A stretch of 64,000 nucleotides of DNA, taken from the NCBI GenBank assembly GCA_015231955.1, contig JADGAN010000012.1, forward strand, positions 1 through 64,000, given 5' to 3'. This stretch comes from Oligoflexia bacterium. Its GTDB lineage: Bacteria; Bdellovibrionota; Bacteriovoracia; Bacteriovoracales; Bacteriovoracaceae. Position 1 is the stretch's first letter. Every line of letters starts with the position of its first letter. The notes beneath the pieces were generated by a model. That model was not told where the DNA came from. It did not search any database and worked only from the letters and a program-made list of their open reading frames with translations. Position numbers and translations under genes: made by a program. Positions 6,217 through 29,707 of this stretch are shown here, in pieces.

Positions 6217-6486
6217 GTGAGCGATTTTAATTTTAGCAAACGACTGAATAAAATTTTGACCGAAAAACGATTATCCCAAAAGTATATCGCTAAAAAGATA
6301 GGGTGCTCTATTTCAACAGTTAATGGCTGGACTGCTGGATGTGTTCCTCGTGACTTGAAAAAACTTTATGAACTATCCGTCCTCCTTGATGTTGATTTTC
6401 AATATTTGGCCGTTGGAATTGAGGCGGGTAACTGCAAAGCATTTAACTTGAATGGTATTTACCAAATAATTCCTTATCAGAAGTAG
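6217..6486 (+). CDS. XRE-family HTH regulator (copy 1)
   Basis: A protein of about 89 residues starting at a GTG 17 bases after the ATPase stop; the longer frame upstream overlaps the ATPase and lacks support. It has a typical XRE helix-turn-helix: RLNKILTEKRLSQKYIAKKI, then CSISTVNGWTAG, then a helix ending DFQYLAVGIEAG. It is clearly paralogous to the next gene (shared pattern S-x-S-T-I/V-x-x-W-T-x-G and FQ/EYL). It is probably translated with the ATPase and may autoregulate the cluster. Confidence 0.75.
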   Translation: MSDFNFSKRLNKILTEKRLSQKYIAKKIGCSISTVNGWTAGCVPRDLKKLYELSVLLDVDFQYLAVGIEAGNCKAFNLNGIYQIIPYQK

Positions 6487-6574
6487 TGCTTTTTTCAAAA
6501 CGAAGAACCGTATGTTGTAACGGTTTTCCGAATGGGACTAAAGTTAATGTTAAATTTGTCTGATAAACGTATTA

Positions 6575-6931
6575 ATGAAAACTCAAGACAAAAGATGTCC
6601 TAGAAGGGCGAGAAAAAAATCAAAATTCACAGAAAACCTCAACCAGCTTTTGAAGGCGCGAATGATTTCCATTAAGGCCGCAGCTGAGCTAGCAGGGGTA
6701 TCACCATCAACTATTAGTGACTGGACTACGGGATCTGCTCCAAACGATTTTGATGCTGTTGCGAGGTTGGCCAGAGCACTTAATGTAAGTTTTGAGTATC
6801 TCTGTTTAGGAACATCTGAAAATAGATCACCGAATAGTATTCCTCTTGAAGAACTTTTCGAAGAAGTACCAACTGAACTAGATGGAATTTTCAAAATAAA
6901 GATTGTTAAACTGCAACGAAGAAGTAATTAA
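6575..6931 (+). CDS. XRE-family HTH regulator (copy 2)
   Basis: A 118-residue protein with a basic N-terminus, an XRE domain (NLNQLLKARMISIKAAAELA, then VSPSTISDWTTG, then VSFEYLCLG) and an acidic tail. It aligns with the 89-residue regulator just upstream, so the pair looks like a tandem duplication. The product may bind a similar operator. The gene is followed after 3 bp by a small exported protein. Confidence 0.78.
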   Translation: MKTQDKRCPRRARKKSKFTENLNQLLKARMISIKAAAELAGVSPSTISDWTTGSAPNDFDAVARLARALNVSFEYLCLGTSENRSPNSIPLEELFEEVPTELDGIFKIKIVKLQRRSN

Positions 6932-6934
6932 ATT

Positions 6935-7255
6935 ATGAAAACCCTGCTTATTACCATCGTGTTTTTAGTTATTTCATCTCCTGTCATTGCTCAAAACCCA
7001 GCGGATGAGTATGTGAAAATATATTACGCCATAGCTAAAGATGAAACGCCTTCTAAAACCACTGTTAAAAAAGTGTGTCCAGTTTTTGACAAATGGGCTA
7101 AAGATAAAAAAGATAAAATTCAAGCACTCCTTGAGTGGGATAAAGAACAATGCCACTTCCTCTTGGGTAGAGATTGTAATCGTCCTGCCGATAATATGAA
7201 AAGAGCTTTACTCCGATCTGCAATAGCTGAACATTGTGGAGTAAAGAATGATTAA
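6935..7255 (+). CDS. Small exported hypothetical protein
   Basis: A 106-residue protein with a Sec-type signal peptide (hydrophobic ITIVFLVISSPVIAQ, cleavage likely after Ala near 19). The mature part is charged and helical and has four cysteines, which could form disulfides in the periplasm. It follows the second XRE regulator by 3 bp and overlaps the start of the lipoprotein gene by 8 bp, so the three look like one transcript. I do not recognise a family. Confidence 0.6.
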   Translation: MKTLLITIVFLVISSPVIAQNPADEYVKIYYAIAKDETPSKTTVKKVCPVFDKWAKDKKDKIQALLEWDKEQCHFLLGRDCNRPADNMKRALLRSAIAEHCGVKND

Positions 7256-7761
7256 TTATTATAGATTATTGGTCGTTGCTTTTTTGATTACAGGATGCTC
7301 CTCTCTGCCTGAAAAAACACCCCAGGACAACTACAAGGAAATTTTACGATATGTTCATCAAAATGATATTGTAAAAGCAGAGGAGTACTTTCAAAACAAC
7401 AAAAAATCTGCAAGTGGTGTGGATGGGAAGAGATACACCTATGTAGAGATGGATGGATCAACCTGGAGGCATAGGAAACAACAAGAAAGCACTTGGGATG
7501 ATATTCAAAAAATAATTTCCGAAGATAACTCTTTTTTATTAAAAATAATTAACTTGTGTGGCTCAACTATAGAAGAGAATAAGATTGATCCATGTCTTGA
7601 TTTTTTTGCAAAGGTTACTTGTTCTCAAGAATCTAGAAAAGATAATTGCTTTATCTCAAAAAACAAAATTCCGAACACCTATGGGTATCAATTAAAGATA
7701 GAAAATTTAAATGCTATCTTTGATGGTTTATGGGCATCCCAAACTCGTATTGATGATGCAA
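7248..7761 (+). pseudogene. Lipoprotein gene, 5' part, interrupted by IS21-family element
   Basis: A lipoprotein signal peptide ends in the lipobox ITGC (Cys near residue 17), preceded by a GGAG ribosome site. The native frame runs to the target duplication at 7755-7761, after which the open frame continues into insertion-sequence repeats and stops at 7862. Removing 7762-10298 plus one duplication copy joins it in frame to 10306-10766, giving a restored protein of about 324 residues. The mature domain is unassigned; it is encoded next to another small exported protein. The truncated product may still be made but lacks its C-terminal half. Confidence 0.85.
7755..7761. repeat. Target-site duplication, left copy
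   Basis: GATGCAA directly precedes the left terminal inverted repeat and is repeated exactly at 10299-10305 after the right terminal repeat. Seven bases is within the range usual for IS21-family elements. Confidence 0.9.
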
Positions 7762-7859
7762 TGCCGAATTTCCTCGTTGAGAGCCACCTGATTTCCTCCA
7801 TTGAGAGCCGGCCAATTTCCTTCATGGAGTGCCACACAATTTCCTCTATTGAGGGCCAC
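7762..7859. repeat. Left terminal repeat array of the IS21-family element
   Basis: Four related units begin near 7768, 7791, 7815 and 7839; each has an ATTTCCT core followed by an inverted-complement GAG(A/T/G)GCC. The outermost unit is the terminal inverted repeat and the inner ones are probable extra transposase-binding sites. Confidence 0.8.
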
Positions 7860-7933
7860 TAGGAAATTAAAAATCGACAACCAATTTATCGCGCCAAAGT
7901 GCTATTCCTTTACTTTACATAAAGGAGGTTCTT

Positions 7934-9415
7934 ATGGCCGGAAAGAAGTTGGCGATGCAAAAACAACTAGAGATATTAAGATTAAAGACGCAATTTAAAC
8001 TTACCGATCGAACAATCGCTCGAGCACTCAAATGCTCGAGGAATACAGTTAAAAAAGTTCTTGAACAGCAATCAAATTCTCAATCAATAACTTCTACGGA
8101 ATCAGTTGCTATTCCTGAATGGATTAAATCGCTAGGTTGGAACGATCTCTATAAAGAATATACAAGAGGGACTCCTCTGCAAGTTTTGTGGGAAGAGAAT
8201 TATTCCGTTGGTAAAATTCCAGTTCAATATCCAGGGTTCTGGAAGCAATTCACAAGGAGATTTCCATCTCTCCCAGATCCAACGATGGTAAAGAGACATC
8301 TTCCTGGAGAAAGAGTGGAAATTGATTACTGTGATGGGATTGATATTTACAATCCTGCTACCGGTGAGGTTGTTAGCACTCAATTATTTATTGGGGTTCT
8401 CTGTTACTCTCGCTATTGTTTTGCCGAGTTTACCTACTCTCAGAAATCAATTGATTTTTTAAATTCTCATTCGCGAATGTTTGATTTCTTTGGAGGAGTT
8501 CCCTCTGTCGCAACTCCTGACAATTTGAAGTCGGCAGTCTCGAAAGCACATTTCTACGACCCAGAAAAGAATCCTGCATATACTAGATTGGCCGAGCATT
8601 ATAATTTTGCAGTTGTACCGGCCAGAGTTCGTTCCCCAAAAGATAAGGCGATCGTCGAGAGAACCGTACAAATTTTTCAGAGATGGTTTTACCATCGAGT
8701 CCGTAAGATGACGTTTACTAGTTTAATGGAATTAAACCAATGCCTGCAAGAGCATTTAAAAATTTTTCATAAAAAGAAACATCGTATACTGCAAAGAACG
8801 AGAGAGGAGATGTTTCTCGAAGAAAAACCATTGTTGAAACTGCTCCCACAAATTCCATATGAAGTTCACACTCACCATAAAGCAACTCTCCATGATGATT
8901 GTCACTTGCAATTTGAAAAGAACTTTTACTCAGCTCCTTGGCAGCTACGAAAACAGCGCCTTGATATCTGGGCCACCGATAAAGTAGTTGAGATTTGGAA
9001 TAACAAAGAACGAGTTGCAGTTCATAATCGTGCCTACACTCATGGTAAATATATAACCAACAGGAATCACTATCCACCTCAACATCAAGCATATCTAGAA
9101 ATAACTCCATATTATATTAGAAAAAAAGCGAGTGAAATTGGAAGTTGTACTTTAGAAGTTATGGAGGAACTATTCAATGGTGAATATCCACTTCAACATC
9201 TTCGTCGAGCTCAAGGAATTGTGGCACTCGCAAAAAAATATTCTCCTCAACAGTTAGAGGATGCCTGCAAAACTGCACTACTATTTAAAAAATATCAAGT
9301 CCCACTGATTGAGAATCTCATTAGAAGTGGCGTAGGTAGAAAAAACAATATTGTCGAATATAAAGTTAACCGCAGTCCCAACCAATTTCTTCGAGGGGAC
9401 TCTTTATTTAATTAG
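7934..9415 (+). CDS. istA: IS21-family transposase IstA
   Basis: A 493-residue DDE transposase. An N-terminal helix-turn-helix (LTDRTIARALKCSRNTVKK, about 23-41) binds the terminal repeats. The catalytic core shows Asp in VEIDYCD (131), Asp in ATPDNLKSAV (196) and Glu in AIVERTVQ (242), the usual D-D-E spacing. A Mu-type C-terminal region follows. The AAAGGAGG site just before the ATG fixes the start. The gene is intact and is followed by istB after 36 bp, so the element could still be active. Confidence 0.95.
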   Translation: MAGKKLAMQKQLEILRLKTQFKLTDRTIARALKCSRNTVKKVLEQQSNSQSITSTESVAIPEWIKSLGWNDLYKEYTRGTPLQVLWEENYSVGKIPVQYPGFWKQFTRRFPSLPDPTMVKRHLPGERVEIDYCDGIDIYNPATGEVVSTQLFIGVLCYSRYCFAEFTYSQKSIDFLNSHSRMFDFFGGVPSVATPDNLKSAVSKAHFYDPEKNPAYTRLAEHYNFAVVPARVRSPKDKAIVERTVQIFQRWFYHRVRKMTFTSLMELNQCLQEHLKIFHKKKHRILQRTREEMFLEEKPLLKLLPQIPYEVHTHHKATLHDDCHLQFEKNFYSAPWQLRKQRLDIWATDKVVEIWNNKERVAVHNRAYTHGKYITNRNHYPPQHQAYLEITPYYIRKKASEIGSCTLEVMEELFNGEYPLQHLRRAQGIVALAKKYSPQQLEDACKTALLFKKYQVPLIENLIRSGVGRKNNIVEYKVNRSPNQFLRGDSLFN

Positions 9416-11289: not shown

Positions 11290-11961
11290 ATGTCGAAGAT
11301 AGAAGATCTGTCATCTTACCTAAGTGAACGCTTGTCGGAAAAAAGCATAAAATTAAAGATTGATGAGTTCATTTCAAATGGAAATTCATCTGCTGGGAAG
11401 AGTAGTCGGGAAGAAGTTTTTACGCGGGAGTTTTTATGTCCCGCAATTGCCGATTTTTTCTATCGAGACTTTAGACACAAAACTGAACTGAGCGATGATC
11501 AAATTAAGAGTGGCCTAGGGACAGAAGGATTTAAACATTTGCCATCATTTGGATTTACTCCGGCCAGAAAGAAAAAACACTTCTTTACCAAAAACGACAT
11601 TATCAGGAATGAACCTCCTGGCAGCTGGTATTCATCAAATCCTGATAAGGCAAAAAGCTTTCAGGCTTGCCCCGATTTTGCAATCAGATCGCCTCTTCCA
11701 TTTAACTGCATTGGAGAAACAAAGCTCCTCACCAAGGGTACTTCGAAGGAGGCCATTACAGAGCTATACAATGCCTCCAGGCAGGCCTTGTTTTACCTTG
11801 GGGCGTTTGCACCCGATTACACGAATGCTCTGTTGGTTATGGCGGATATGACTCCAAATCAAGTTCTGAAAACAGCGTTAGAGGAAGATCTTAATAAATC
11901 CATTCTTGATCGTTTTGGTGATGAAACAAATATCCATCTCTGCTGTTGTTTTTTGGGATAG
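11290..11961 (+). CDS. PD-(D/E)XK nuclease-like protein
   Basis: A 223-residue protein (ATG at 11290 after a GGGAG site; a GTG at 11284 is also in frame). The section CPDFAIRSP followed by CIGETKLL gives the PD...ExK spacing of restriction-endonuclease-like folds, and helices after it (TELYNASRQALFYLGAF) fit the same fold. A basic stretch PARKKKHFF lies before it. No methyltransferase is adjacent. It could be a restriction-type or defence nuclease, or a Holliday-type resolvase. The call rests on motif spacing alone. Confidence 0.55.
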   Translation: MSKIEDLSSYLSERLSEKSIKLKIDEFISNGNSSAGKSSREEVFTREFLCPAIADFFYRDFRHKTELSDDQIKSGLGTEGFKHLPSFGFTPARKKKHFFTKNDIIRNEPPGSWYSSNPDKAKSFQACPDFAIRSPLPFNCIGETKLLTKGTSKEAITELYNASRQALFYLGAFAPDYTNALLVMADMTPNQVLKTALEEDLNKSILDRFGDETNIHLCCCFLG

Positions 11962-11968
11962 ATCATAT

Positions 11969-12322
11969 TTAATTGGCCAACCCTTTAGCTACACTAAGTA
12001 AGATTTTTATCTTCTCATCATCGATTGATCTAACAATGTTCTCTAATTCCTCTCTGGGAGTAATTTCAATTTTCATCCTACTGAGACGATCATAAAATGA
12101 TTTTTCACTTGGTATCCCGTACACACTCAACAATCGAGCAAAGAAATCACCCTTAGGAATATCGAGTCTCCCTTTTTCAATATGCCTTATCAACGCTTCT
12201 GAGCAAGACAATATTTTTGCCACTTTCCTGATGGACAGACCAGCCTTTAGGCGTATCCGTCTAAGATAGATTGATTCAGGTGTAATATGAATTGTTTGAG
12301 TCCGTCGATATTTTTTTGCCAT
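11969..12322 (-). CDS. XRE-family HTH regulator (third in region)
   Basis: A protein of about 117 residues starting at the ATG at 12322; the longer frame begins with a TTG at 12361 without a ribosome site. A basic N-terminus is followed by an XRE domain (YLRRIRLKAGLSIRKVAKIL, CSEALIRHIEKGRLDIP). Its 3' end faces that of the nuclease-like gene with 7 bp between. It may repress the divergent channel-like gene starting at 12632. It is not closely similar to the two tandem XRE proteins at 6217 and 6575. Confidence 0.75.
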   Translation of the reverse strand: MAKKYRRTQTIHITPESIYLRRIRLKAGLSIRKVAKILSCSEALIRHIEKGRLDIPKGDFFARLLSVYGIPSEKSFYDRLSRMKIEITPREELENIVRSIDDEKIKILLSVAKGLAN

Positions 12323-12631
12323 AAGTGGTATTTGTAATTTGATGCCATTCTTAGATCTCAAACACTGATAAAAAAAGTATCTAAATTCAATTTAGATTTG
12401 ATAAGCTGAATTTTTTTACTAAGGAGAGAATTACTGAATCCTGCCACTCGAACAGTCACTTCCTCTGCCATGTTTGATTGATTATTAATCATTGCTTATT
12501 AGGGATTGATGGCAGTTACTGCACGAGAATGAAAAAATCAAGTATTAAAGTTTATATTCTTTTTTTTCGAGAAGTATAAAGAAATCACAAAAGATGATCT
12601 CAGCTTTATTTTATTAACAGAAGGAAATCTC

Positions 12632-13651
12632 TTGGATGCAATTATAATTTATACATACAAAACAATAGCTGTAATTAAAGCACTTTTAATAGAGTGCCTA
12701 AATGATAATGTTAAATTTATATCACTAACACTTGCAATATTCCTGCTTTCAATCGCATTTTTTGCAATTTTGTACTGGTTGATTTTTCGCTTCTCTCTTG
12801 TCTCTTATAAGATTATTGAAGGCAATGTCGTAACCGGGTTTGATTCCCCTATGCCAAGCATGGTGGTAAACAGTAGTCTGTTGACTAGAAAAATTATAAA
12901 AGCTAAAAATGACTTACTACTCAGCGATTTCATGGGTGAAACAATAAACCATCGATGGCATATCTTTTCATTAACAAAAATTGATCGCAGCTCTTGGTCT
13001 TCTGCTGAGCAAGAAAAATGGAGAGTTTTCGATAAGCAAATATCATCTGAGCAAATTCCTACGGATATTGTAGAGAAAAAGTTTAGTGAACATGAAAATG
13101 TCTTTATCGAGAGAGAAAGAATTAGCTTAGGTATTTCAGCAGACACCCATGTCCATCTGACATTGAAGATACTAGGAATTCCTCTAGAAGAATTGAATAG
13201 GCGGCTAAGCAATAATCAACAATATGAGATTGATGTTCTTAATATTTCCAAGACAATCGTTGATGAAATTGAGAGAGTAATTTCGAGCGGCAATAGGATA
13301 AGTTTGCAAATATTGCGATCAGAGCTTATGAATATTGTTCGTGCGCATGAGCAAGCAATTACAGATAAAAAATCATTGGCTGAAGGAGTTTACAGCATAG
13401 CTCTATCTGCACTTGCCAGTAATAATCCATCGACAGGTAAATTTGATCTCACTGGACTAAAAGACCAACCAACCATTTTTGATTTTTTATATTTCTCACT
13501 TCTTTTAGGCACATCTAATACCTCCGATGTACTAATACCAATATCAACAACAGCAAGATTATTAGTGTGGCTCCAGATACTATGGTCATACATTATTTTA
13601 AGTCTATTTATTGGTATGTTTGTTGATGTCTTTAAATCTTTGAGAAGTTAA
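12632..13651 (+). CDS. Membrane protein with degenerate two-TM channel-like pore
   Basis: A 339-residue protein, apparently from a TTG start after an AAGGAAATC region. One strong membrane segment lies near 28-55, then a soluble domain of about 220 residues, then two C-terminal hydrophobic stretches (about 288-296 and 310-332) flanking FSLLLGTSNTSDVLIPIS. This layout resembles ion_trans_2 potassium-channel pores, which also have a P-loop before an inner helix, but the selectivity filter TVGYG is not conserved. A resemblance to the C-terminus of DUF1345 proteins is also possible. Neighbours are an XRE regulator and a nuclease-like gene, so a defence or stress role is conceivable but unproven. 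Confidence 0.55.
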   Translation: MDAIIIYTYKTIAVIKALLIECLNDNVKFISLTLAIFLLSIAFFAILYWLIFRFSLVSYKIIEGNVVTGFDSPMPSMVVNSSLLTRKIIKAKNDLLLSDFMGETINHRWHIFSLTKIDRSSWSSAEQEKWRVFDKQISSEQIPTDIVEKKFSEHENVFIERERISLGISADTHVHLTLKILGIPLEELNRRLSNNQQYEIDVLNISKTIVDEIERVISSGNRISLQILRSELMNIVRAHEQAITDKKSLAEGVYSIALSALASNNPSTGKFDLTGLKDQPTIFDFLYFSLLLGTSNTSDVLIPISTTARLLVWLQILWSYIILSLFIGMFVDVFKSLRS

Positions 13652-20664: not shown

Positions 20665-21918
20665 GTGAATATCAACTTTAAGATAGAGCAAGCTGTGTTT
20701 GCTGATTTAAGTAAGATCTTAAACCTCTACTTTTCTAGCTATGGTAATAATTATCCGGTAAACATTGGTATGGATCAAAAGGCCATCACTAATGCTTTAA
20801 AGGATCCAGAAAACTATTATGTGATCGTGGCAAAAACAATGGTAATCCCCGAGGAGAGAGCGCTGATTATTGGATGTTGTATCTTTGCTATCGATCAAAA
20901 GTATAAAATTGGTAAAGTGGTGGGTGTGGCCATCCATGATGACTACCGCAGGCTGGGTGTTGCTTCGTCGCTGATTGCACAGGGGAAACAGATTTTTTTA
21001 GAGAAGCAGCAAGGAGAGGTTCTTATTAATACACTGTATACGACGACGAGAACAGTGGCAATTTCTCACCAGCTTTCCTTTATGCAAAATGGGTTTATTC
21101 CCTTAGGGATTTTTCCCAATGCACGCAAAGTGGATGATTACGAGACATTTACCCTCATGGGAGCGTTTCGCAAAGGGGTTTTAGAGAAGCGGGCCAAGGT
21201 GGAACGGGTGCCGATGGCACTAATGCCAATCTTGAAAGTGGTACACGACTCCATTCCTGGTTGGCGATTACCAGCGGGTGTTGACGACGTTTCTGGGGTG
21301 GTAACTTCTCGTAAGCACTTTGATGAGGGGGAGGTGGGAAGTAGCTACAAAGGAATGGGTAGTAGTAAAGGGAGTTTTAGTGAGGAGTTTGAGTTTATTG
21401 AAGCTGCTCACTTTGTGGAAAAGCGGTTTTATGCTGTGTTTGCAGATGATATGGACTCCACTTTTTATCCTTTTCATAGGCCCAATCTCTTGATCTATGG
21501 GAAGCGCAGTAAAATTGAGATCTATGCGGCCTATAATAAACAAGACCATTATTGTGTTATTATCGTGGCCAGTCAGGTGATGATCACTTTAAAGGAAAAT
21601 TTCAAGAAACTTATTTTGGATATGAAAAGGCATGGCATTTCTTATGTAGAGATTTTAGTGCGCATGAGTCGCTTTGAGCGTTTGGCCTTTTATATGGATA
21701 ATGAGTTTATCCCTTCGGCAATTTATCCAGCGATGAGAGAGATTGAGGGAGAGATGCACGATTATGTGTTGCTAACGAGGACGATGGAGCCACTCGATTT
21801 TCGTGGGATCAATATCCACCATGCGTTTCGCCCCTTTATATCTCAATACACTTCGCAGTGGATTCAAAGGCACATCAACAGTTTTGAGGTTTACTATGGT
21901 AGAGAGAATGAGATTTGA
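20665..21918 (+). CDS. Tandem GNAT-like acyltransferase
   Basis: A protein of about 417 residues with a GNAT domain: VVGVAIHDDYRRLGVASSLIA carries the acyl-CoA-binding R-x-x-G-x-A motif. The two halves look duplicated: SFMQNGFIPLGIFPNARKV near 155 and FYMDNEFIPSAIYPAMREI near 355 share the same pattern. Only the first half keeps the CoA motif clearly, so the second may be structural. An AGGAG site at 20652-20656 supports the GTG at 20665 (TTG 20662 is close). The gene overlaps the LuxE-like gene by 23 bp, so it belongs to the same operon. The acyl donor and acceptor are unknown. Confidence 0.7.
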   Translation: MNINFKIEQAVFADLSKILNLYFSSYGNNYPVNIGMDQKAITNALKDPENYYVIVAKTMVIPEERALIIGCCIFAIDQKYKIGKVVGVAIHDDYRRLGVASSLIAQGKQIFLEKQQGEVLINTLYTTTRTVAISHQLSFMQNGFIPLGIFPNARKVDDYETFTLMGAFRKGVLEKRAKVERVPMALMPILKVVHDSIPGWRLPAGVDDVSGVVTSRKHFDEGEVGSSYKGMGSSKGSFSEEFEFIEAAHFVEKRFYAVFADDMDSTFYPFHRPNLLIYGKRSKIEIYAAYNKQDHYCVIIVASQVMITLKENFKKLILDMKRHGISYVEILVRMSRFERLAFYMDNEFIPSAIYPAMREIEGEMHDYVLLTRTMEPLDFRGINIHHAFRPFISQYTSQWIQRHINSFEVYYGRENEI

Positions 21919-23083
21919 GCTAGGCCCGTCGCTAGCAAATGTACAGCATTTATGTGAACGAAAACACCCTTATCGTGACTTCTATAAGCAAGAGCTAGAG
22001 GAGGAGTTTGTAGCAGCAATGCGAGAAAATCTTTGCTGGCATCAAGAGCGAAGTCCTTTCTTTAAAGCGTATTTGCAGCGGCAAGGGTGGAGCGAAGTGG
22101 AGAAGATGTTAGTGACGATGGAGGATTTGCAAAGAGTACCGATGGTACTGGCCAAATTTTTTAAGCGCCACGAAATGCTTAGTATTCCGCGCGAACAGGT
22201 GTTTTTACACCTTACCTCCTCGGGAACCATGGGAGAAAAGTCGCAAGTTTTTTTTGATGAGTGGTCGATCAAATCGGCGCAGCAGATGGTGACCAATATT
22301 TTTGATTATTATGGGTGGATCGAAAATAGTTCATCTAAAAGTGTGAACTACCTACTGTACACCTATGAACCTACCCGCGATAATGCCAAACTCGGAACCG
22401 CCTATACCGATAACTTTTTGTGCCAGTATGCTCCGATGAATCGTGGATTTACAGCTTTGCGGGCACTGATCGCTCATGGCAACCATCGTTTTGATTGGTC
22501 GGGAACACTGCGCTTTTTAGAGGAGTGTGCCGATAGTGGAGTGCCTGTGCGGATTTTTGGCTTTCCCGCCTTTTTTTATTTTACCATCAAGCGAATGCGC
22601 GAGTTAGCAATGAGAAAGTTAAAGCTTCATCCCGATTCTCTAGTCTTCTTGGGAGGAGGCTGGAAAGGCCATCAAGGAGAGGCGATCGCCAAGCGTGAGC
22701 TTTACGCTTTGGCGGAAGAGTGGCTAGGGCTTCGAGATGAACGACTCCGGGATGGCTTTGGTTCTGTTGAACACTGTATTCCCTATATTGAGTGTAAACA
22801 CCACCAGTTTCATTTACCGCTGTGGTCGCGCGTGTTTATTCGAGACGTGCGTACACTGGAGGTACTGCCCTATGGGGAAAAAGGGTTTTTACAGCTGATG
22901 TCTCCCTATATTACCTCCATGCCGGCGATGAATGTTTTAATGAGTGATCTCGCCTCCCTTCACGATGGCCGGGGGTGTGGCTGTGGTGTGGAGACTCCCT
23001 ATTTTATGGTTCATGGCAGGGCCGGAGTGAGTAGTAGTCGCAGCTGCGCGATTGCTGCCTCCGAACTCTTAAAAGGAGAGTAA
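21896..23083 (+). CDS. LuxE-like acyl-protein synthetase
   Basis: A 395-residue adenylate-forming enzyme of the LuxE type, which activates an acid as acyl-AMP and holds it as a thioester before reduction by LuxC. The nucleotide motif LTSSGTMGEKSQ is present, FLGGGWKGH lies mid-protein, and the C-terminal RSCAIAASEL corresponds to the acylated cysteine region of LuxE. The ATG at 21896 follows a GAGG site and overlaps the GNAT gene; an ATG at 21908 is an alternative. The stop overlaps the next ATG (TAATG), which indicates translational coupling with the LuxC fusion. Confidence 0.8.
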   Translation: MVERMRFELGPSLANVQHLCERKHPYRDFYKQELEEEFVAAMRENLCWHQERSPFFKAYLQRQGWSEVEKMLVTMEDLQRVPMVLAKFFKRHEMLSIPREQVFLHLTSSGTMGEKSQVFFDEWSIKSAQQMVTNIFDYYGWIENSSSKSVNYLLYTYEPTRDNAKLGTAYTDNFLCQYAPMNRGFTALRALIAHGNHRFDWSGTLRFLEECADSGVPVRIFGFPAFFYFTIKRMRELAMRKLKLHPDSLVFLGGGWKGHQGEAIAKRELYALAEEWLGLRDERLRDGFGSVEHCIPYIECKHHQFHLPLWSRVFIRDVRTLEVLPYGEKGFLQLMSPYITSMPAMNVLMSDLASLHDGRGCGCGVETPYFMVHGRAGVSSSRSCAIAASELLKGE

Positions 23084-25614
23084 TGACAATGACGATGATA
23101 AGTAGAAAGCATTGGTGGCAAGGGGTGTGGGTTAGTGATGAAGAGTTGGAGGCAAAACTACAAGATCCCACTTGGGCACGCACGCTTTTGGAAAAAAAGT
23201 TGCCACTTTCACACCTTTTGCAAGTTTTAAGAAAATTCAAACAGAGTGCTTTAGTGAAGGGTAGTGAGGTTTGGAATAAGTTGTCGGCAACGATTTCAGA
23301 GTGGGAGCTTTGTGATGTGAGCGCTTTTTTAGCGGAGGAGGCGCTTTTACAGAAGGTGAAAAAGGAGTTGGGGCTTAACTTTTTGTACGATGATCCTTGG
23401 GTGAAACGGCAAGCGGTGAGTGGTAGCGGTATCTTTGAGGGGTGGGTTCCTTTGGGCATTGTCGCGCACATTACCCCTGGAAATGTCTCGAGTGTAGGTG
23501 CCTTAAGTGTGATTGAAGCGCTGTTAGTGGGCAATGTGAATATTTTAAAGTGCTCTCATGAGGACCATTTTTCACCACTCTTTTTAGAGGAGTTGGCAAA
23601 GTGCGATGAGAGTGGACTACTCTCCCACTTTATTTTATTGGTGAATCTTTCGTCAAAAGAGCGTGAGTTATTGCGAAAAGTAGTTGCCCCTTGCGATGGT
23701 GTAGTGGTTTGGGGAGGGGAGGGGGCGCTGCTAGGAGTGCGGGAGTTGGTGGGAGCGAATACGCGGATTATTCCCTATGGCCCTAAGATCTCTTTTTCCT
23801 ATGTGAGTAGAAAAGGGGCGTGTGCGACCACCTATGAGAAGATTGCTAGCGATATTACTCAATATGAGCAGGAGGCCTGCTCTAGTCCGCAAATTGTTTT
23901 TGTGGAGGCCAAAGAGAGTGAGCGAGGGTTGCTATTAGCAGCGGCCAAGCAGATGGCAGCGGCGTTAGAGGTGTGTGAGCGGACAACTCCTCCTCGCTAC
24001 CATCCTAGTAGCAACGAGTGGGCAGAGATCACCATGGCGTGTGAGCTTCATCACCTAGAGAGTGCGCTGGGGATGGGAGAGGTGCTTCGTGGTAAAGGAT
24101 GGAGAGTGCTTTTATCTTTTAAGAGTGAGCTTCGAAGCTCTCCACTTTTTCGGACGATTTGGGTGATCCCGCTAGAGAAGAGTGAGATTCATGGTGTTTT
24201 ATTTCCTTATCGCGCTTACTTGCAAAGTGCAGGTGTGGAGGTGGCGCCAGAGGAGCTGTCAGCGCTTGCACACACGTTATGGAGTGCAGGGGTTACTAGA
24301 GTAACAGAAGTGGGAAAAATGCATGAGGGGTATGTAGGGGAGGCACACGATGGAGAGATGGCGCTTACCAGAGTGGCCAAACGTGTGTCCTTGGTGACAA
24401 AGCAGCAAGCTTTTTTATCAAGAACCACTTTGCGCGAAGATTTCGCTTTGGAAGAGGAGAGAGCGCGAGAGATCCGTGCACACGCTCCAATGAGCAAAGC
24501 ACACTTTCAGCAGCTGCCGCCAGTGATGGAGCGGGTTGATTTGGTTTTTAAAAGCGGAGGGAGTTCGGGTGATTCCAAGATCTCGACCTTTTCTTATGAG
24601 GATTACCACTACCAGATGTATGCGGCAGCAGGAGGACTTTTAGCAGCAGGCCTTAAACCGCAAACGGACCTAGTGATGAATCTCTTCTATGCAGGAGGTC
24701 TCTATGGCGGTTTTCTAAGCTTTTATACTATTTTGGAATTTTTGAGGGCGCGGCAGTTGCCGATGGCCGCTCACCAAGATTTTTCTATGGTGGCAGATAC
24801 CATTATACGCTTTAAAATCGACACACTTGTAGGAATGCCAAGTTACCTGCGTAAGCTTTTTAGTAGCGAAGAAGAGAGTGGAAGAAAATTAAAAGCGTAT
24901 GCGGGGGTTAAGAAGATCTTTTATGGCGGTGAACACTTCACACCAAAGCAGCAACAATATTTCAAAGAAGAGTTTGCGCTAGCGCTTATTCGTTCTGCCT
25001 CTTATGGTAGTGTGGATGCGGGGCCACTGGGGTATCAGTGCGAGTATTGTGAAGGAGGTGTGCACCACTTACAAGCAGATTTACAGTACTTGGAGATCTT
25101 TAAACTCGATCAAGATCTAGCGGTGACGGAGGAGAGTGAGGTGGGGCGATTGCTTTTTACTTCACTTGCACGCCATGGACATAAGCTAATTCGTTATGAG
25201 ATTGGGGATTTAGGACGATGGGTAAGCAGCGATGGGCGTTGTAAGTGCGGGCGAACTTCACCTACGTTTGAGCTTTTAGGACGCTATGGGGATGTATTTA
25301 AGTGTGGAGGAAGTTATTTAAATTATGAAAAATTCTTGATGGTTTTAGCGGATGTGGTGAAGGGTGATTTTGATCTACAACTCACACTCTCCTCGAAAGA
25401 GGGGTGTGATCATCTGTTGCTGGCAACAGTTGGAAATTTTTCAAGGGAGCACTACAAAGAGGAACTGCTGCAAAGCTATCACGATTTACGAGAGGTGTAT
25501 GTAGAGGGGATACTGTTACTCGAGGTAAAAGCAGTAGCAAAAAGTGAACTACAAACGAGTAGTGCCAGTGGAAAAATTTTACGAGTGATAGATTTACGCT
25601 TACTAGCTTGTTAG
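23083..25614 (+). CDS. LuxC acyl reductase fused to a PaaK/LuxE-like adenylation domain
   Basis: An 843-residue fusion. Residues 1 to about 440 are a LuxC-type NADPH-dependent acyl reductase: HITPGNVSSVGALSVIEALL, NVNILKCS and the catalytic Cys266 in YEQEACSSPQ. Residues from about 450 form a PaaK-like adenylating domain with FKSGGSSGDSK (489-499), IFYGGEHF and SYGSVDAG, and the C-terminal SGKILRVIDLRL with the A10-type lysine. AAAGGAG precedes the ATG. The fusion would activate an acid and reduce it to an aldehyde in one chain. The C-terminal domain is paralogous to the next gene, so two or three different acids may be handled. The substrate is unknown. Confidence 0.85.
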   Translation: MTMTMISRKHWWQGVWVSDEELEAKLQDPTWARTLLEKKLPLSHLLQVLRKFKQSALVKGSEVWNKLSATISEWELCDVSAFLAEEALLQKVKKELGLNFLYDDPWVKRQAVSGSGIFEGWVPLGIVAHITPGNVSSVGALSVIEALLVGNVNILKCSHEDHFSPLFLEELAKCDESGLLSHFILLVNLSSKERELLRKVVAPCDGVVVWGGEGALLGVRELVGANTRIIPYGPKISFSYVSRKGACATTYEKIASDITQYEQEACSSPQIVFVEAKESERGLLLAAAKQMAAALEVCERTTPPRYHPSSNEWAEITMACELHHLESALGMGEVLRGKGWRVLLSFKSELRSSPLFRTIWVIPLEKSEIHGVLFPYRAYLQSAGVEVAPEELSALAHTLWSAGVTRVTEVGKMHEGYVGEAHDGEMALTRVAKRVSLVTKQQAFLSRTTLREDFALEEERAREIRAHAPMSKAHFQQLPPVMERVDLVFKSGGSSGDSKISTFSYEDYHYQMYAAAGGLLAAGLKPQTDLVMNLFYAGGLYGGFLSFYTILEFLRARQLPMAAHQDFSMVADTIIRFKIDTLVGMPSYLRKLFSSEEESGRKLKAYAGVKKIFYGGEHFTPKQQQYFKEEFALALIRSASYGSVDAGPLGYQCEYCEGGVHHLQADLQYLEIFKLDQDLAVTEESEVGRLLFTSLARHGHKLIRYEIGDLGRWVSSDGRCKCGRTSPTFELLGRYGDVFKCGGSYLNYEKFLMVLADVVKGDFDLQLTLSSKEGCDHLLLATVGNFSREHYKEELLQSYHDLREVYVEGILLLEVKAVAKSELQTSSASGKILRVIDLRLLAC

Positions 25615-25636
25615 AACAGCTAAAGGAATGCTAATT

Positions 25637-26863
25637 ATGATTTATTCGTTACAAGAGATTGTTTTACATGCCAAAAATTGTTCTCCCTATTATCGAAAAT
25701 TGTATGCGGGAATCGGTGAGCACTTTTCCTTAGAGGATTTGCCAATCGTTACTCAGGAGGATTTTTGGGAGCACAATAGTATTCAAAATAATCGCCTCTT
25801 GACTGGGCCTATAGAGGATGGCGTGGTTTTTAAAAGTGGAGGAACAACGGGCAGACCTAAGTTTTCGGTTTTTACTAAAGCGGAGTGGGAGCGTTTTACT
25901 GCAGAATTTGCTTATGGCATGGATCACTTGGCACTAGAAAATGGTGATAGGGTGGCCAATCTTTTTTATGGAGGCAGTATGTACGCCTCGTTTGTCTTTA
26001 TTATGAAGTCGTTGGAAAAGTGTCATCAAAGGTTACTGCATTTTCCTATCTCAGGGCAATGTCCACTAGAGGACACCATCGCCTTTATTCGTGATTACGA
26101 TATTAGGGTGCTGCTAGGTGTACCCACTTCGATCATCACTTTGATTAGTAAAGCTAGCGCCATGGAGGTGAAGCTACCACTAACCAAGATTTTTTTTGGC
26201 GGAGAGAGCATGTATCCCGATCAGAGGGAGTTTATTAAAAGCTATTTTCCCAAAATCCTCATCTCTTCCATTGGACACGCCAGTGTAGATGGCGGACATA
26301 TTGGCCTTGCCACTCCCCTTTGCTCCTATAATGAACATGTGGAGTTTTGCAAATCTTCAATCTTGGAGATTATCGACCCGGATAGTGGGCAACCCATTAT
26401 CAACAGCAGAAAACGAGGCCGACTCGTGTATACTAACCTGACCAGAAAGTTAATGCCGATTATTCGTTACCCTGTAGGGGATATGGCAGAATGGACGAGC
26501 GAGAGCAGTGAGGGTGAGCGTAAATATCGCATCCTTGGCCGTGACGATGCAGGAGCACGGGTGGGTACGGTAACTCTTACTCGCGATGATTTAGAGCAGG
26601 TCTTTGCTGCGTTTAAGTTTACCCATAAACAGATGTTATTGGAGCGTATTGCAGGTAAGGATGCGCTTACTATTCGTGTGGTTGGTTCAACTACAACGTC
26701 TAAAGAGCAACTGTTACAACATCTTTATAAAGAACGTTCGCATCTCTTGGCAGAAGTTAAAAAAGGCCATATCAATCCTCCCATTATTGAGATCGTAAAC
26801 GAAAGTGATTTAGAGGTTAATCCAAGAACTGGGAAGCTACGCTTGGTTATTGATCGCCGCTGA
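25637..26863 (+). CDS. PaaK-like adenylate-forming enzyme
   Basis: A protein of about 408 residues with the adenylation motifs FKSGGTTGRPK near 80, NLFYGGSMYASF, KIFFGGES, the SIGHASVDGG segment and a C-terminal TGKLRLVIDRR lysine motif. It aligns closely with the C-terminal domain of the preceding fusion protein, so one arose by duplication of the other. The ATG at 25637 is ten bases after AAAGGA; the ATG at 25628 is too close to it. It is last of four tightly packed genes. It may be a ligase supplying an acyl group to the reductase or to the GNAT protein. Confidence 0.78.
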   Translation: MIYSLQEIVLHAKNCSPYYRKLYAGIGEHFSLEDLPIVTQEDFWEHNSIQNNRLLTGPIEDGVVFKSGGTTGRPKFSVFTKAEWERFTAEFAYGMDHLALENGDRVANLFYGGSMYASFVFIMKSLEKCHQRLLHFPISGQCPLEDTIAFIRDYDIRVLLGVPTSIITLISKASAMEVKLPLTKIFFGGESMYPDQREFIKSYFPKILISSIGHASVDGGHIGLATPLCSYNEHVEFCKSSILEIIDPDSGQPIINSRKRGRLVYTNLTRKLMPIIRYPVGDMAEWTSESSEGERKYRILGRDDAGARVGTVTLTRDDLEQVFAAFKFTHKQMLLERIAGKDALTIRVVGSTTTSKEQLLQHLYKERSHLLAEVKKGHINPPIIEIVNESDLEVNPRTGKLRLVIDRR

Positions 26864-26960
26864 AGATTCTTTGCATAATTTTTCATATAAAGTTAAAGGG
26901 CCTAGGTAAAAGCACCGAAAAGTGTTGAGTAGTCTCTTTGGTCTAAAGAGTAAGGAGTAG

Positions 26961-27845
26961 ATGATGGAAAAAGTGGTTATCAAGCTTTGCGGGGTTAGTA
27001 GAAACTTTTATGGAAGCCAAGTGTTGCAAAATGTCTCTTTTGAGATTGCAGCAGGCACTTTTTGCTCTTTGATTGGGGAAAATGGCGCAGGAAAATCGAC
27101 ACTTTTAAACATCTTGATGGGACTAGAGAGTTTTGATGAGGGAGAGGGCGTAGTGCTTGGTAAGAGCATCTACCTGGATTTGGGGGTGATGAAAAATGAG
27201 ATAGGGTTTGTGAGCGAAAAGATTAATTACGATTTGCCCATAAAAGTGGGGCAATTTTTTGAGAACTATGCTCTCTTTTTTCAAAACTGGGATCAAAAAC
27301 TATTTTTGACTTTGATGAAAGAACGCAAATTGGACTTAGGGGTCTCTTTTCGAGAGTATTCACGCGGACAAAAGATGCAGGCAGCACTGGTAGCGGCATT
27401 AGCGATCAAACCTAAGCTTTTACTAATTGATGAGATCACCTCTGTCTTGGATATTTGGGCCCGTAAATATTTCATTGAGATTTTGAAAAATTTTACAACA
27501 GAGGGTGGGACTGTTTTGATTACCACTAATGTAATTAATGAGATTCAGTATGCTACAGATCAGGTGATCATTTTGAATAAGGGTGGTATTCAACTGGATG
27601 AAAAGCTAAAAGATATTCCTAACAAATTTATCAAGATCAGAAATGCCAAAAATGAGGAGCATACGATCTTCAAAGATCCTAAATGTTTTTGGAGTGGTGA
27701 GAATAGCGATGGAACCTTCTCTTATATTGTCCCGATTACAGTGGCGGAGGAGCACTCGATTCCCGAGCGCTTACTCGATAGACGGGCCGTCAACTTAGAT
27801 GAGTTATTTATCTATTTTGTTAAAACCGGTGAAAGAAGTAAATGA
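26961..27845 (+). CDS. ABC transporter ATP-binding protein, divergent
   Basis: A 294-residue ATPase of the YtrB-like exporter class. Walker A is GENGAGKST, the signature is YSRGQKMQ (degenerate LSGGQ) and Walker B is LLLIDE. At the switch-histidine position the sequence reads LITTNVINE, so the usual His is Asn, and the Q-loop reads GFVSEK. An AAGGAG site precedes the ATG. It pairs with the membrane protein that starts 23 bp downstream, and the pair may export the product of the preceding acyl-reductase genes. Confidence 0.85.
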   Translation: MMEKVVIKLCGVSRNFYGSQVLQNVSFEIAAGTFCSLIGENGAGKSTLLNILMGLESFDEGEGVVLGKSIYLDLGVMKNEIGFVSEKINYDLPIKVGQFFENYALFFQNWDQKLFLTLMKERKLDLGVSFREYSRGQKMQAALVAALAIKPKLLLIDEITSVLDIWARKYFIEILKNFTTEGGTVLITTNVINEIQYATDQVIILNKGGIQLDEKLKDIPNKFIKIRNAKNEEHTIFKDPKCFWSGENSDGTFSYIVPITVAEEHSIPERLLDRRAVNLDELFIYFVKTGERSK

Positions 27846-27868
27846 TACAAGATTTGTGAACCAGGGGA

Positions 27869-29707
27869 ATGAACTTGCAAAAATTTACAACGCTCTTTAA
27901 ATTGTTTTGTTTGCGATATTTGGGGGTACAACTTTTTATCACCATATGTTCAATTGGTGTTTTTGCCTTTTGGGCACTATTATTTCCCTCCGATTTTCGT
28001 TCACCTCGCTCCTTTAGCGACTATTTGGCAGTCTTCACTATTATCTATTTGTTGATTCCTATCGGATGGGGGATGACTTATGGTGGGAATTTAAGTTGGC
28101 TTTTGCTGACACCTATGAGCAAAGTCAACATTTTTGTGAACTTCATTAAGCTCAAACTTATTTGCTTTGTGGGGAGTTTTTTTCTTTGGTGTGTTTTGTT
28201 GATGGCGATTATGGTGATTTCAAAATTATTCTATCAAGACTTAATTCCTTCACAACTTATAAGCAGTGGTCAATATACACAACTTGGAGTGAGCATGAGC
28301 ATTGATCTCCCTGCAGTGAGTGCTCTACACCCAGGGGAAAAGCCGATTACTGGTGTAGGAGAGGGTGGAATGTTTTCTGGAAGTGATGTTGGAATGATGT
28401 CATTGATCTTGGCCTTACTCATTTTTGTGTTTATGAGCATCCCACGTGGTTATAACGATTATGTACAGTTTTTAAAGGAAGAGCATACACTAAAAGGAGG
28501 ACGTTACATTTTATTCGTTATACAAAAATGGGGCTGGGTTTTTATTATTACTTTAGCACTAGTCTCCTTAATATTTAAAAAATATGTGGTAACCTTCTTT
28601 TTTATCTACTTGGTGCTAGCACTATTCTTGTCTTTGTTTACCATTAACAACAATTTCAAACAACTTAAGATCTCCTCTAGAAAATTAAAATACTCCTTGC
28701 TTGCAATGTGCACAGTGAGTTTTTTGTTATTATTTGCCTGGAGTTATGCCATCTCTTATAAAACCATTAAAAATAAAGACGCCTCTGTTGATGAGGTGCT
28801 TGCGCAAATTAGCTATCTTGGCCATTGGGGGCCTGCGATTAATACCGAGGAGATGATCAAGTTTTTTGAACAAAAGCTTGCGGCAGATACTTTTGAAAAG
28901 TTACTAGACCATCCTTCGTTCGTAGCGCATAAGCATGAAATTATTCGCAAGATTGGCGTGCAAAAACTTTTGGAGATGGTGGAAGATTGGCATAGTTTCT
29001 TGAAAGTGTTAGATTACTATCGCAGCATCAGTTTGACTTTAGAGGAACGACGTTTTTTTCTAGAGCGTTTTTCCAAGATTGTGAACGAAGATGCGAGAAA
29101 TGCTTATTGGCAGTTAAAAGTTGTGGCGGTCTTTTTTTCCTACCAACATCTCAAAATGAAGGATGTGGAAGATATGATTGATTCTAAAAATCCAGTAGAG
29201 CAGGCGATTGGAATTTTACTGGCCAGGGTTTATGGTGATTTGCCGATGGGAATGAAGCTTATTAGATTTGTAAAGTCCCCACCGCTAGATCTCTTTGCCA
29301 ATGTACGCGACTCTTTAGTGTTGCTTCATGGGATTAACTATACCCATGAGGATCTGTTTGAGCTTTACGCTAAGGCGCAAAGGGGAAGTGTGATTTCCTA
29401 TGTGCAATCCAAGGGTGAGCGTTATAATAACGATTGTAATGATCTCTTGAATCGTCTCAAAAAATATTGTAAATTTGGTCTCTCCTCCAATAAGCGTGAG
29501 GAGGAGGCGGTTGGACTTACAAGTTATATTAGTGCCCGTAACGTGTTATTGGTTAACATTTGCGTGAGAGATCGTATTGTCAGTTATCGTCCCGATTTGG
29601 TGGGAGATTTTGTGATGTGCGGTCCTTTCTTGTGGCCTTTAAGTGATTGCAGTGAAAGTTTGATTCGTAAGGTAGTCTTGGATAAGAGCGAGATTACCCA
29701 AGATTAA
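27869..29707 (+). CDS. ABC transporter membrane protein with large soluble C-terminus
   Basis: A 612-residue protein. The first 300 residues have six or seven membrane helices (LFITICSIGVFAFWALLF, AVFTIIYLLIPIGWGM, then others ending SFLLLFAWSYAI). The remaining 300 are soluble, helical and charged, with no motif I can name. It is the likely partner of the ATPase just upstream, 23 bp away. Its soluble half is much larger than in usual permeases of this class and may bind a substrate or a partner. An AGGGGA site is close to the ATG at 27869, and a TTG at 27875 is a possible alternative start. Confidence 0.65.
   Translation: MNLQKFTTLFKLFCLRYLGVQLFITICSIGVFAFWALLFPSDFRSPRSFSDYLAVFTIIYLLIPIGWGMTYGGNLSWLLLTPMSKVNIFVNFIKLKLICFVGSFFLWCVLLMAIMVISKLFYQDLIPSQLISSGQYTQLGVSMSIDLPAVSALHPGEKPITGVGEGGMFSGSDVGMMSLILALLIFVFMSIPRGYNDYVQFLKEEHTLKGGRYILFVIQKWGWVFIITLALVSLIFKKYVVTFFFIYLVLALFLSLFTINNNFKQLKISSRKLKYSLLAMCTVSFLLLFAWSYAISYKTIKNKDASVDEVLAQISYLGHWGPAINTEEMIKFFEQKLAADTFEKLLDHPSFVAHKHEIIRKIGVQKLLEMVEDWHSFLKVLDYYRSISLTLEERRFFLERFSKIVNEDARNAYWQLKVVAVFFSYQHLKMKDVEDMIDSKNPVEQAIGILLARVYGDLPMGMKLIRFVKSPPLDLFANVRDSLVLLHGINYTHEDLFELYAKAQRGSVISYVQSKGERYNNDCNDLLNRLKKYCKFGLSSNKREEEAVGLTSYISARNVLLVNICVRDRIVSYRPDLVGDFVMCGPFLWPLSDCSESLIRKVVLDKSEITQD

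Follow-up and report, generated by a model that had tools for sequence, protein, structure and literature searches.

LuxE and LuxC of luminous bacteria convert an acid to an aldehyde by way of acyl-AMP, acyl-S-LuxE, and acyl-S-LuxC, and members of the LuxE family self-acylate on a Cys. The locus described here encodes homologs of both enzymes, with the reductase Cys aligned to that of the Photobacterium phosphoreum LuxC-LuxE reductase (PDB: 7xc6) and a Cys at the C-terminal end of LuxE, but it differs from the systems of luminous bacteria by the fusion of LuxC to a PaaK-like domain, by an extra PaaK-like gene and a GNAT gene, and by the lack of a luciferase; its LuxC and LuxE also score far under their equivalog cut-offs, with 74.8 bits where LuxC requires 750 and 80.1 bits where LuxE requires 550. 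PaaK1/PaaK2, BT_0428, ClxA, NatL2, and AjiA1 share the fold and the ATP-site residues of its PaaK-like modules, which differ from the PaaK family in scoring far below the equivalog cut-off (49.5 and 67.7 bits against 646.3 bits for TIGR02155) and in being fused to, or clustered with, LuxC and LuxE. GNAT-fold acyltransferases resemble the remaining protein, which has two GNAT-fold halves and a CoA motif in the first, but the known matches listed cover one domain only. A further parallel is found in grixazone biosynthesis, where GriC (AMP-binding) and GriD convert an aryl acid to the aldehyde (PMC10179220). Compared by description, this pair and our locus both combine an adenylating enzyme and a separate reductase in one cluster, and our locus would likewise make an aldehyde from a carboxylic acid on the way to a natural product, but the gene sets differ, and no genes for 3,4-AHBA synthesis are seen beside our locus. 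The sequence-only reading of this DNA knew of no described system with such a layout, and the open full-text literature likewise gave no description of the gene set. What appears to be new is the conserved arrangement and the pathway; the enzyme families themselves are known.

The window, by which we mean the whole stretch of 64,000 nucleotides analyzed, lies on contig 18 of genome bin G000 (5.6 Mb, 95% complete), whose relatives are Bdellovibrionota, many of them bearing the name Bacteriovoracaceae. In the list of open reading frames, the + strand has a head-to-tail run of four genes between positions 20665 and 26863: a tandem GNAT-like acyltransferase (20665-21918), a LuxE-like acyl-protein synthetase (21896-23083), a LuxC-PaaK fusion of 843 residues (23083-25614), and a stand-alone PaaK-like adenylate-forming enzyme of 411 residues (25628-26863). 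The fusion is composed of a LuxC acyl-reductase domain (residues ~1-438, positions 23083-24400) and a PaaK-like adenylating domain (residues ~475-843, positions 24500-25614). The ATG of LuxE at 21896 is inside the GNAT gene, which stops at 21918, position 23083 is the one base common to the LuxE TAA and the LuxC ATG, and 13 nt separate LuxC-PaaK from PaaK, in agreement with the initial description of four overlapping or tightly packed genes. A gap of 97 nt leads to an ABC ATPase gene (26961-27845, PF00005 match), followed by a gene for a membrane protein with no Pfam family (27869-29707). The sequence-only reading had this pair as divergent, but both genes are on the + strand like the cassette. 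A promoter and terminator scan was set aside because the counts were within two standard deviations of those from shuffles.

The LuxE protein matches PF04443 (4.8e-25) and the LuxE chain of 7xc6 (3.4e-17), while the LuxC domain matches PF05893 (1.5e-76) and the LuxC chain of the same entry (2.4e-18). The C-terminal Cys of LuxE (SRSC; Cys415 when counted from the GTG start of the reading frame at 21803) and the Glu of its VEH motif are each invariant (115/115 sequences). Cys266 of LuxC is aligned with the Cys of YDQQACFST in Photobacterium LuxC and is invariant in all 104 sequences, although some loci in these residue counts, and in those given below for PaaK, are the same genome repeated, and the sequences are not all independent. 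The structure model of the fusion has a pTM of 0.50, because of which the relative placement of its LuxC and PaaK domains is not interpreted. At two loci (L039 10137-12631 and L041 10284-12785), LuxC and PaaK are separate neighboring reading frames, and the fusion is therefore not essential. The genome contains one LuxC and one LuxE. A search of this 95% complete genome with PF00296 gave no match to luciferase (LuxA/LuxB), with the control positive in 10 of 14, which extends to this genome the earlier remark that luxA and luxB are not here; the LuxD model PF02273 had no match in the genome, but it had none in any control genome either.

The fused PaaK domain matches the NCBIfam PaaK models (8.9e-20) and the structures 4r1l and 2y27, and it retains the C-terminal Lys831 and Asp709 (104/104 each). 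The free enzyme matches NF045666 (1.8e-27), with its catalytic Lys, in RTGK, kept in 97 of 98 sequences (one gap) and its motif Asp in 98 of 98. The PaaK-like domains have the Asp of an SVD motif at the position where PaaK has what we take to be a Glu, and their chemistry could differ from that of PaaK. The relatives with solved structures mostly bind small aryl acids, namely phenylacetate, 3-amino-4-hydroxybenzoate, or salicylate. Every adenylating or reducing module of the cassette is conserved and probably active.

The GNAT protein matches PF00583 (1.3e-6), and its AlphaFold model (mean pLDDT 89.6) has two halves of GNAT topology, of which the second is degenerate in sequence and visible in the structure model. 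The first carries a CoA-binding motif of the R/Q-x-x-G-x-A type (YRRLGVA); across the family, R or Q is found in most sequences and Gly in about half. In Foldseek, GNAT enzymes match the model (1.8e-9), and its structural neighbors include the protein N-acetyltransferases RimI and Naa60; among the matches listed none is full length, the coverage of ~165-182 columns corresponding to one domain. The GNAT, LuxE, LuxC-PaaK, and PaaK assignments of the sequence-only reading agree with these Pfam and NCBIfam matches, with the second GNAT half coming from the structure model, and the two Cys it had singled out, in RSCAIAASEL and as Cys266 in YEQEACSSPQ, were both located and are both invariant.

The four genes travel together, and the cassette is present in many genera of the family. 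Among the 18 family loci fetched first, 10 have all four genes in the order of the window, two lack only an adjacent GNAT, five carry only three genes, in a diverged version that has no second PaaK, and one is cut off by the end of its contig; the four-gene group is 52-58% identical to the window in LuxE and 35-43% in LuxC-PaaK. The diverged version (GNAT, LuxE, LuxC-PaaK) is seen at L023, L024, L025, L026, L028, and L130 and is apparently common in genus g24; its product may be a simpler relative of the cassette product. Across the phylum, a LuxC-PaaK profile finds matches in 106 of 369 genomes and 46 of 182 genera, counts that include a few PaaK-only matches. When the LuxE alignment was run against ~85,000 species genomes, 242 relatives emerged, and the best 80 of the 242, which were taken on, include Massilia, Azonexus, Azorhizobium, Chromobacterium, Iodobacter, Xenorhabdus, Algicola, Dokdonella, Longimycelium, Streptomyces, and Corynebacterium. 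All 53 loci that have full flanks carry LuxE together with LuxC-PaaK and PaaK, and 51 of them also carry the tandem GNAT; a score of no LuxC at L106 is an artefact of a stop-to-stop reading frame that starts upstream of LuxE. In three genomes, of genus g18 and G103, no GNAT adjoins the cassette and one is found elsewhere in the genome, and in G021 (95% complete) the other three genes are present and no GNAT was found in the genome. Over 45 non-redundant loci, the four proteins have pairwise distance matrices that correlate at r of 0.82-0.93, a level reached in 0 of 2000 permutations; shared descent feeds this correlation, which therefore speaks for inheritance as a unit and not for physical contact. 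From these comparisons, we regard the four-gene core as a real unit and not a chance neighborhood. Free variation of the neighbors between genomes, raised at the outset as grounds for abandoning the idea, is not what the four core genes show, and the expected co-occurrence of GNAT, LuxE, LuxC-PaaK, and PaaK is borne out at the 53 loci; the ABC pair does vary freely and does not co-occur with them.

The position of the GNAT gene and the accompanying genes differ between lineages. A first type of GNAT stands upstream of LuxE in the window, most Bdellovibrionota, and Actinobacteria, and a second type follows the free PaaK in Xenorhabdus, Chromobacterium, Salmonella, Azonexus, Dokdonella, and Azorhizobium. 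A deep separate clade (L116, L118, L120, L121, and L129) has PaaK, second-type GNAT, LuxE, LuxC-PaaK, and first-type GNAT side by side, and three of the five also have an MFS gene. An MFS transporter is the usual type linked to the cassette (19 of 53 loci); its gene overlaps GNAT in many Bdellovibrionota, and the order in Streptomyces is PaaK-MFS-GNAT-LuxE-LuxC-PaaK. The genome of the window has a cassette-type MFS on contig 37 (L136 8577-11343), 39% identical to the MFS of L031 and divergent from a radical-SAM/SPASM gene, which is a possible candidate for an exporter in trans. No pathway genes are linked to the cassette in Algicola. The second-type GNAT of Azonexus, Dokdonella, Azorhizobium, and L115 carries a fused RsbW-like HATPase_c_2 domain (L073 8083-15404, L091 13944-17362, L084 13873-15465, and L115 11047-15133), and STAS or Cache-HAMP-SpoIIE genes adjoin this fusion in some of these loci; the HATPase, STAS, and SpoIIE parts suggest that the pathway may be under partner-switch control. 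Apart from the cassette, L117 has two PaaK-like genes with no LuxC or LuxE nearby (6397-8408 and 11554-13584), each followed by a gene for a ~230-residue protein with a similar start, of which the one tested had no Pfam match; a PaaK-like gene and its ~230-residue partner would make a two-gene unit.

Copies of the cassette are carried on plasmids in Salmonella and Streptomyces. The plasmid search returned only two records with the cassette, the thousands of others matching only the last bases of the query, an adjoining transposase region outside the cassette. A conjugative IncF Salmonella plasmid, CP053580 (L111 13983-19740), has LuxE, LuxC-PaaK, PaaK, and GNAT; the GNAT frame is interrupted there, while a GNAT gene is annotated in CP054717. 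E. coli genomes gave no DNA match to the Salmonella copy. A viral origin was set aside, as viral contigs gave no relative with a single-sequence query. The cassette is patchy within the family, and in a quick LuxE tree the Actinobacteria and most Proteobacteria are nested among Bdellovibrionota sequences with supports of 96 and 99; the tree is unrooted with long branches, and the direction of transfer is therefore unproven. Patchy spread and plasmid copies together argue for horizontal movement, and we read the cassette as a self-contained, horizontally mobile unit.

What goes beyond conserved and probably active modules is what we infer. The reading we favor, and consider reasonably probable, is a mobile small-molecule cassette in which LuxE and LuxC make an aldehyde, the PaaK-like enzymes activate further acids, and GNAT acylates an amine. 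By analogy with its family, LuxE would adenylate an acid and load the acyl group on its own C-terminal Cys; Cys266 of LuxC would then take it over, and reduction with NAD(P)H would release the aldehyde, as in the fatty-acid reductase of bioluminescence. The fused and free PaaK modules would activate one or two additional acids by forming their AMP or CoA esters, and the tandem GNAT could acylate an amine from such an acyl-CoA. The product is likely to be an aldehyde that is N-acylated or conjugated in some other way, or else a cyclised derivative, and it would serve as a signal or inhibitor outside the cell. Common metabolites are the probable acids, given that the cassette can stand alone, as in Algicola, and moves without precursor genes, and the PaaK structure ligands together with GriC/GriD suggest that at least one of them may be aryl. 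The first interpretation of this locus, a LuxC/LuxE operon without luciferase for an acyl-aldehyde or derived metabolite, is thus retained with strong support from gene conservation, invariant residues, and correlated divergence, except for its ABC export. In a more specific version, the cassette would make bacterial signals or inhibitors of a new, diffusible class: common metabolites would be converted to an N-acylated or conjugated aldehyde and exported in this form by MFS, with control in some lineages by a SpoIIE-STAS-HATPase partner switch that has its kinase-like domain fused to GNAT; we put this forward tentatively, as a possibility that may well prove wrong.

We consider it rather unlikely that the cassette serves membrane or storage lipids (ether lipids, waxes, alcohols) by supplying long-chain fatty aldehydes, with no secreted small molecule. 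Fatty acids are the classic LuxC/LuxE substrates, 7xc6 is the nearest solved structure, and beta-oxidation genes adjoin the cassette on the opposite strand in the window and in G024, but these neighbors are found only in this closest relative, and a lipid function does not sit well with the linked MFS genes, the plasmid copies and patchy family spread, or the mostly small aryl ligands of the solved PaaK relatives. Much less probable still is an acylation of proteins or peptides, in which LuxE and PaaK load acyl groups, GNAT transfers them to a protein, and LuxC reduces or releases them: the likeness of GNAT to RimI and Naa60 and the self-acylation of the LuxE family would fit, but no recurrent gene for a peptide or substrate protein is seen beside the cassette, and the linked transporters are MFS. 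A role in anti-phage defence was rejected; PADLOC gave no match for the four core proteins, and its matches to the ABC ATPase look like those of a generic P-loop.

Slightly less weight than to protein acylation is given to the proposal of the sequence-only reading that the neighboring ABC ATPase and its membrane protein export an aldehyde-derived metabolite. The pair is on the same strand and close downstream of the cassette, but the membrane protein occurs in only one of 57 other genomes (G024), where it and its ATPase are not on the contig that carries the cassette. The pair there adjoins a DksA-like gene and a membrane gene, both of which are also downstream in the window. The membrane protein is thus accompanied by an ABC ATPase in each of the two genomes in which it was detected (L137 6990-8981 and the window). 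The G024 cassette, the nearest relative of ours, retains the upstream neighbors of the window (hydratase-dehydrogenase, thiolase, and outer-membrane protein) and has no ABC genes downstream, and the window is therefore a junction of two gene blocks. We judge the ABC pair to be lineage-specific and outside the cassette, and export by it was rejected for want of conserved linkage with the four genes; MFS is the recurrent transporter, with a cassette-type relative elsewhere in the genome of the window.

With the mobile small-molecule cassette as the preferred reading, enzymes that databases annotate as luminescence proteins would serve a mobile pathway that is widespread among bacteria lacking luciferase; its hosts include Bdellovibrionota related to predatory bacteria, actinomycetes of the soil, symbionts of nematodes and insects, corynebacteria, and Salmonella, there on conjugative plasmids. 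The LuxC-PaaK fusion is a natural one-chain candidate for carboxylic acid reduction, and the presence of the four genes in culturable hosts (Xenorhabdus, Chromobacterium, and Streptomyces) makes the pathway directly testable. If the product is a signal or an antibiotic, it would be common to very different lineages.
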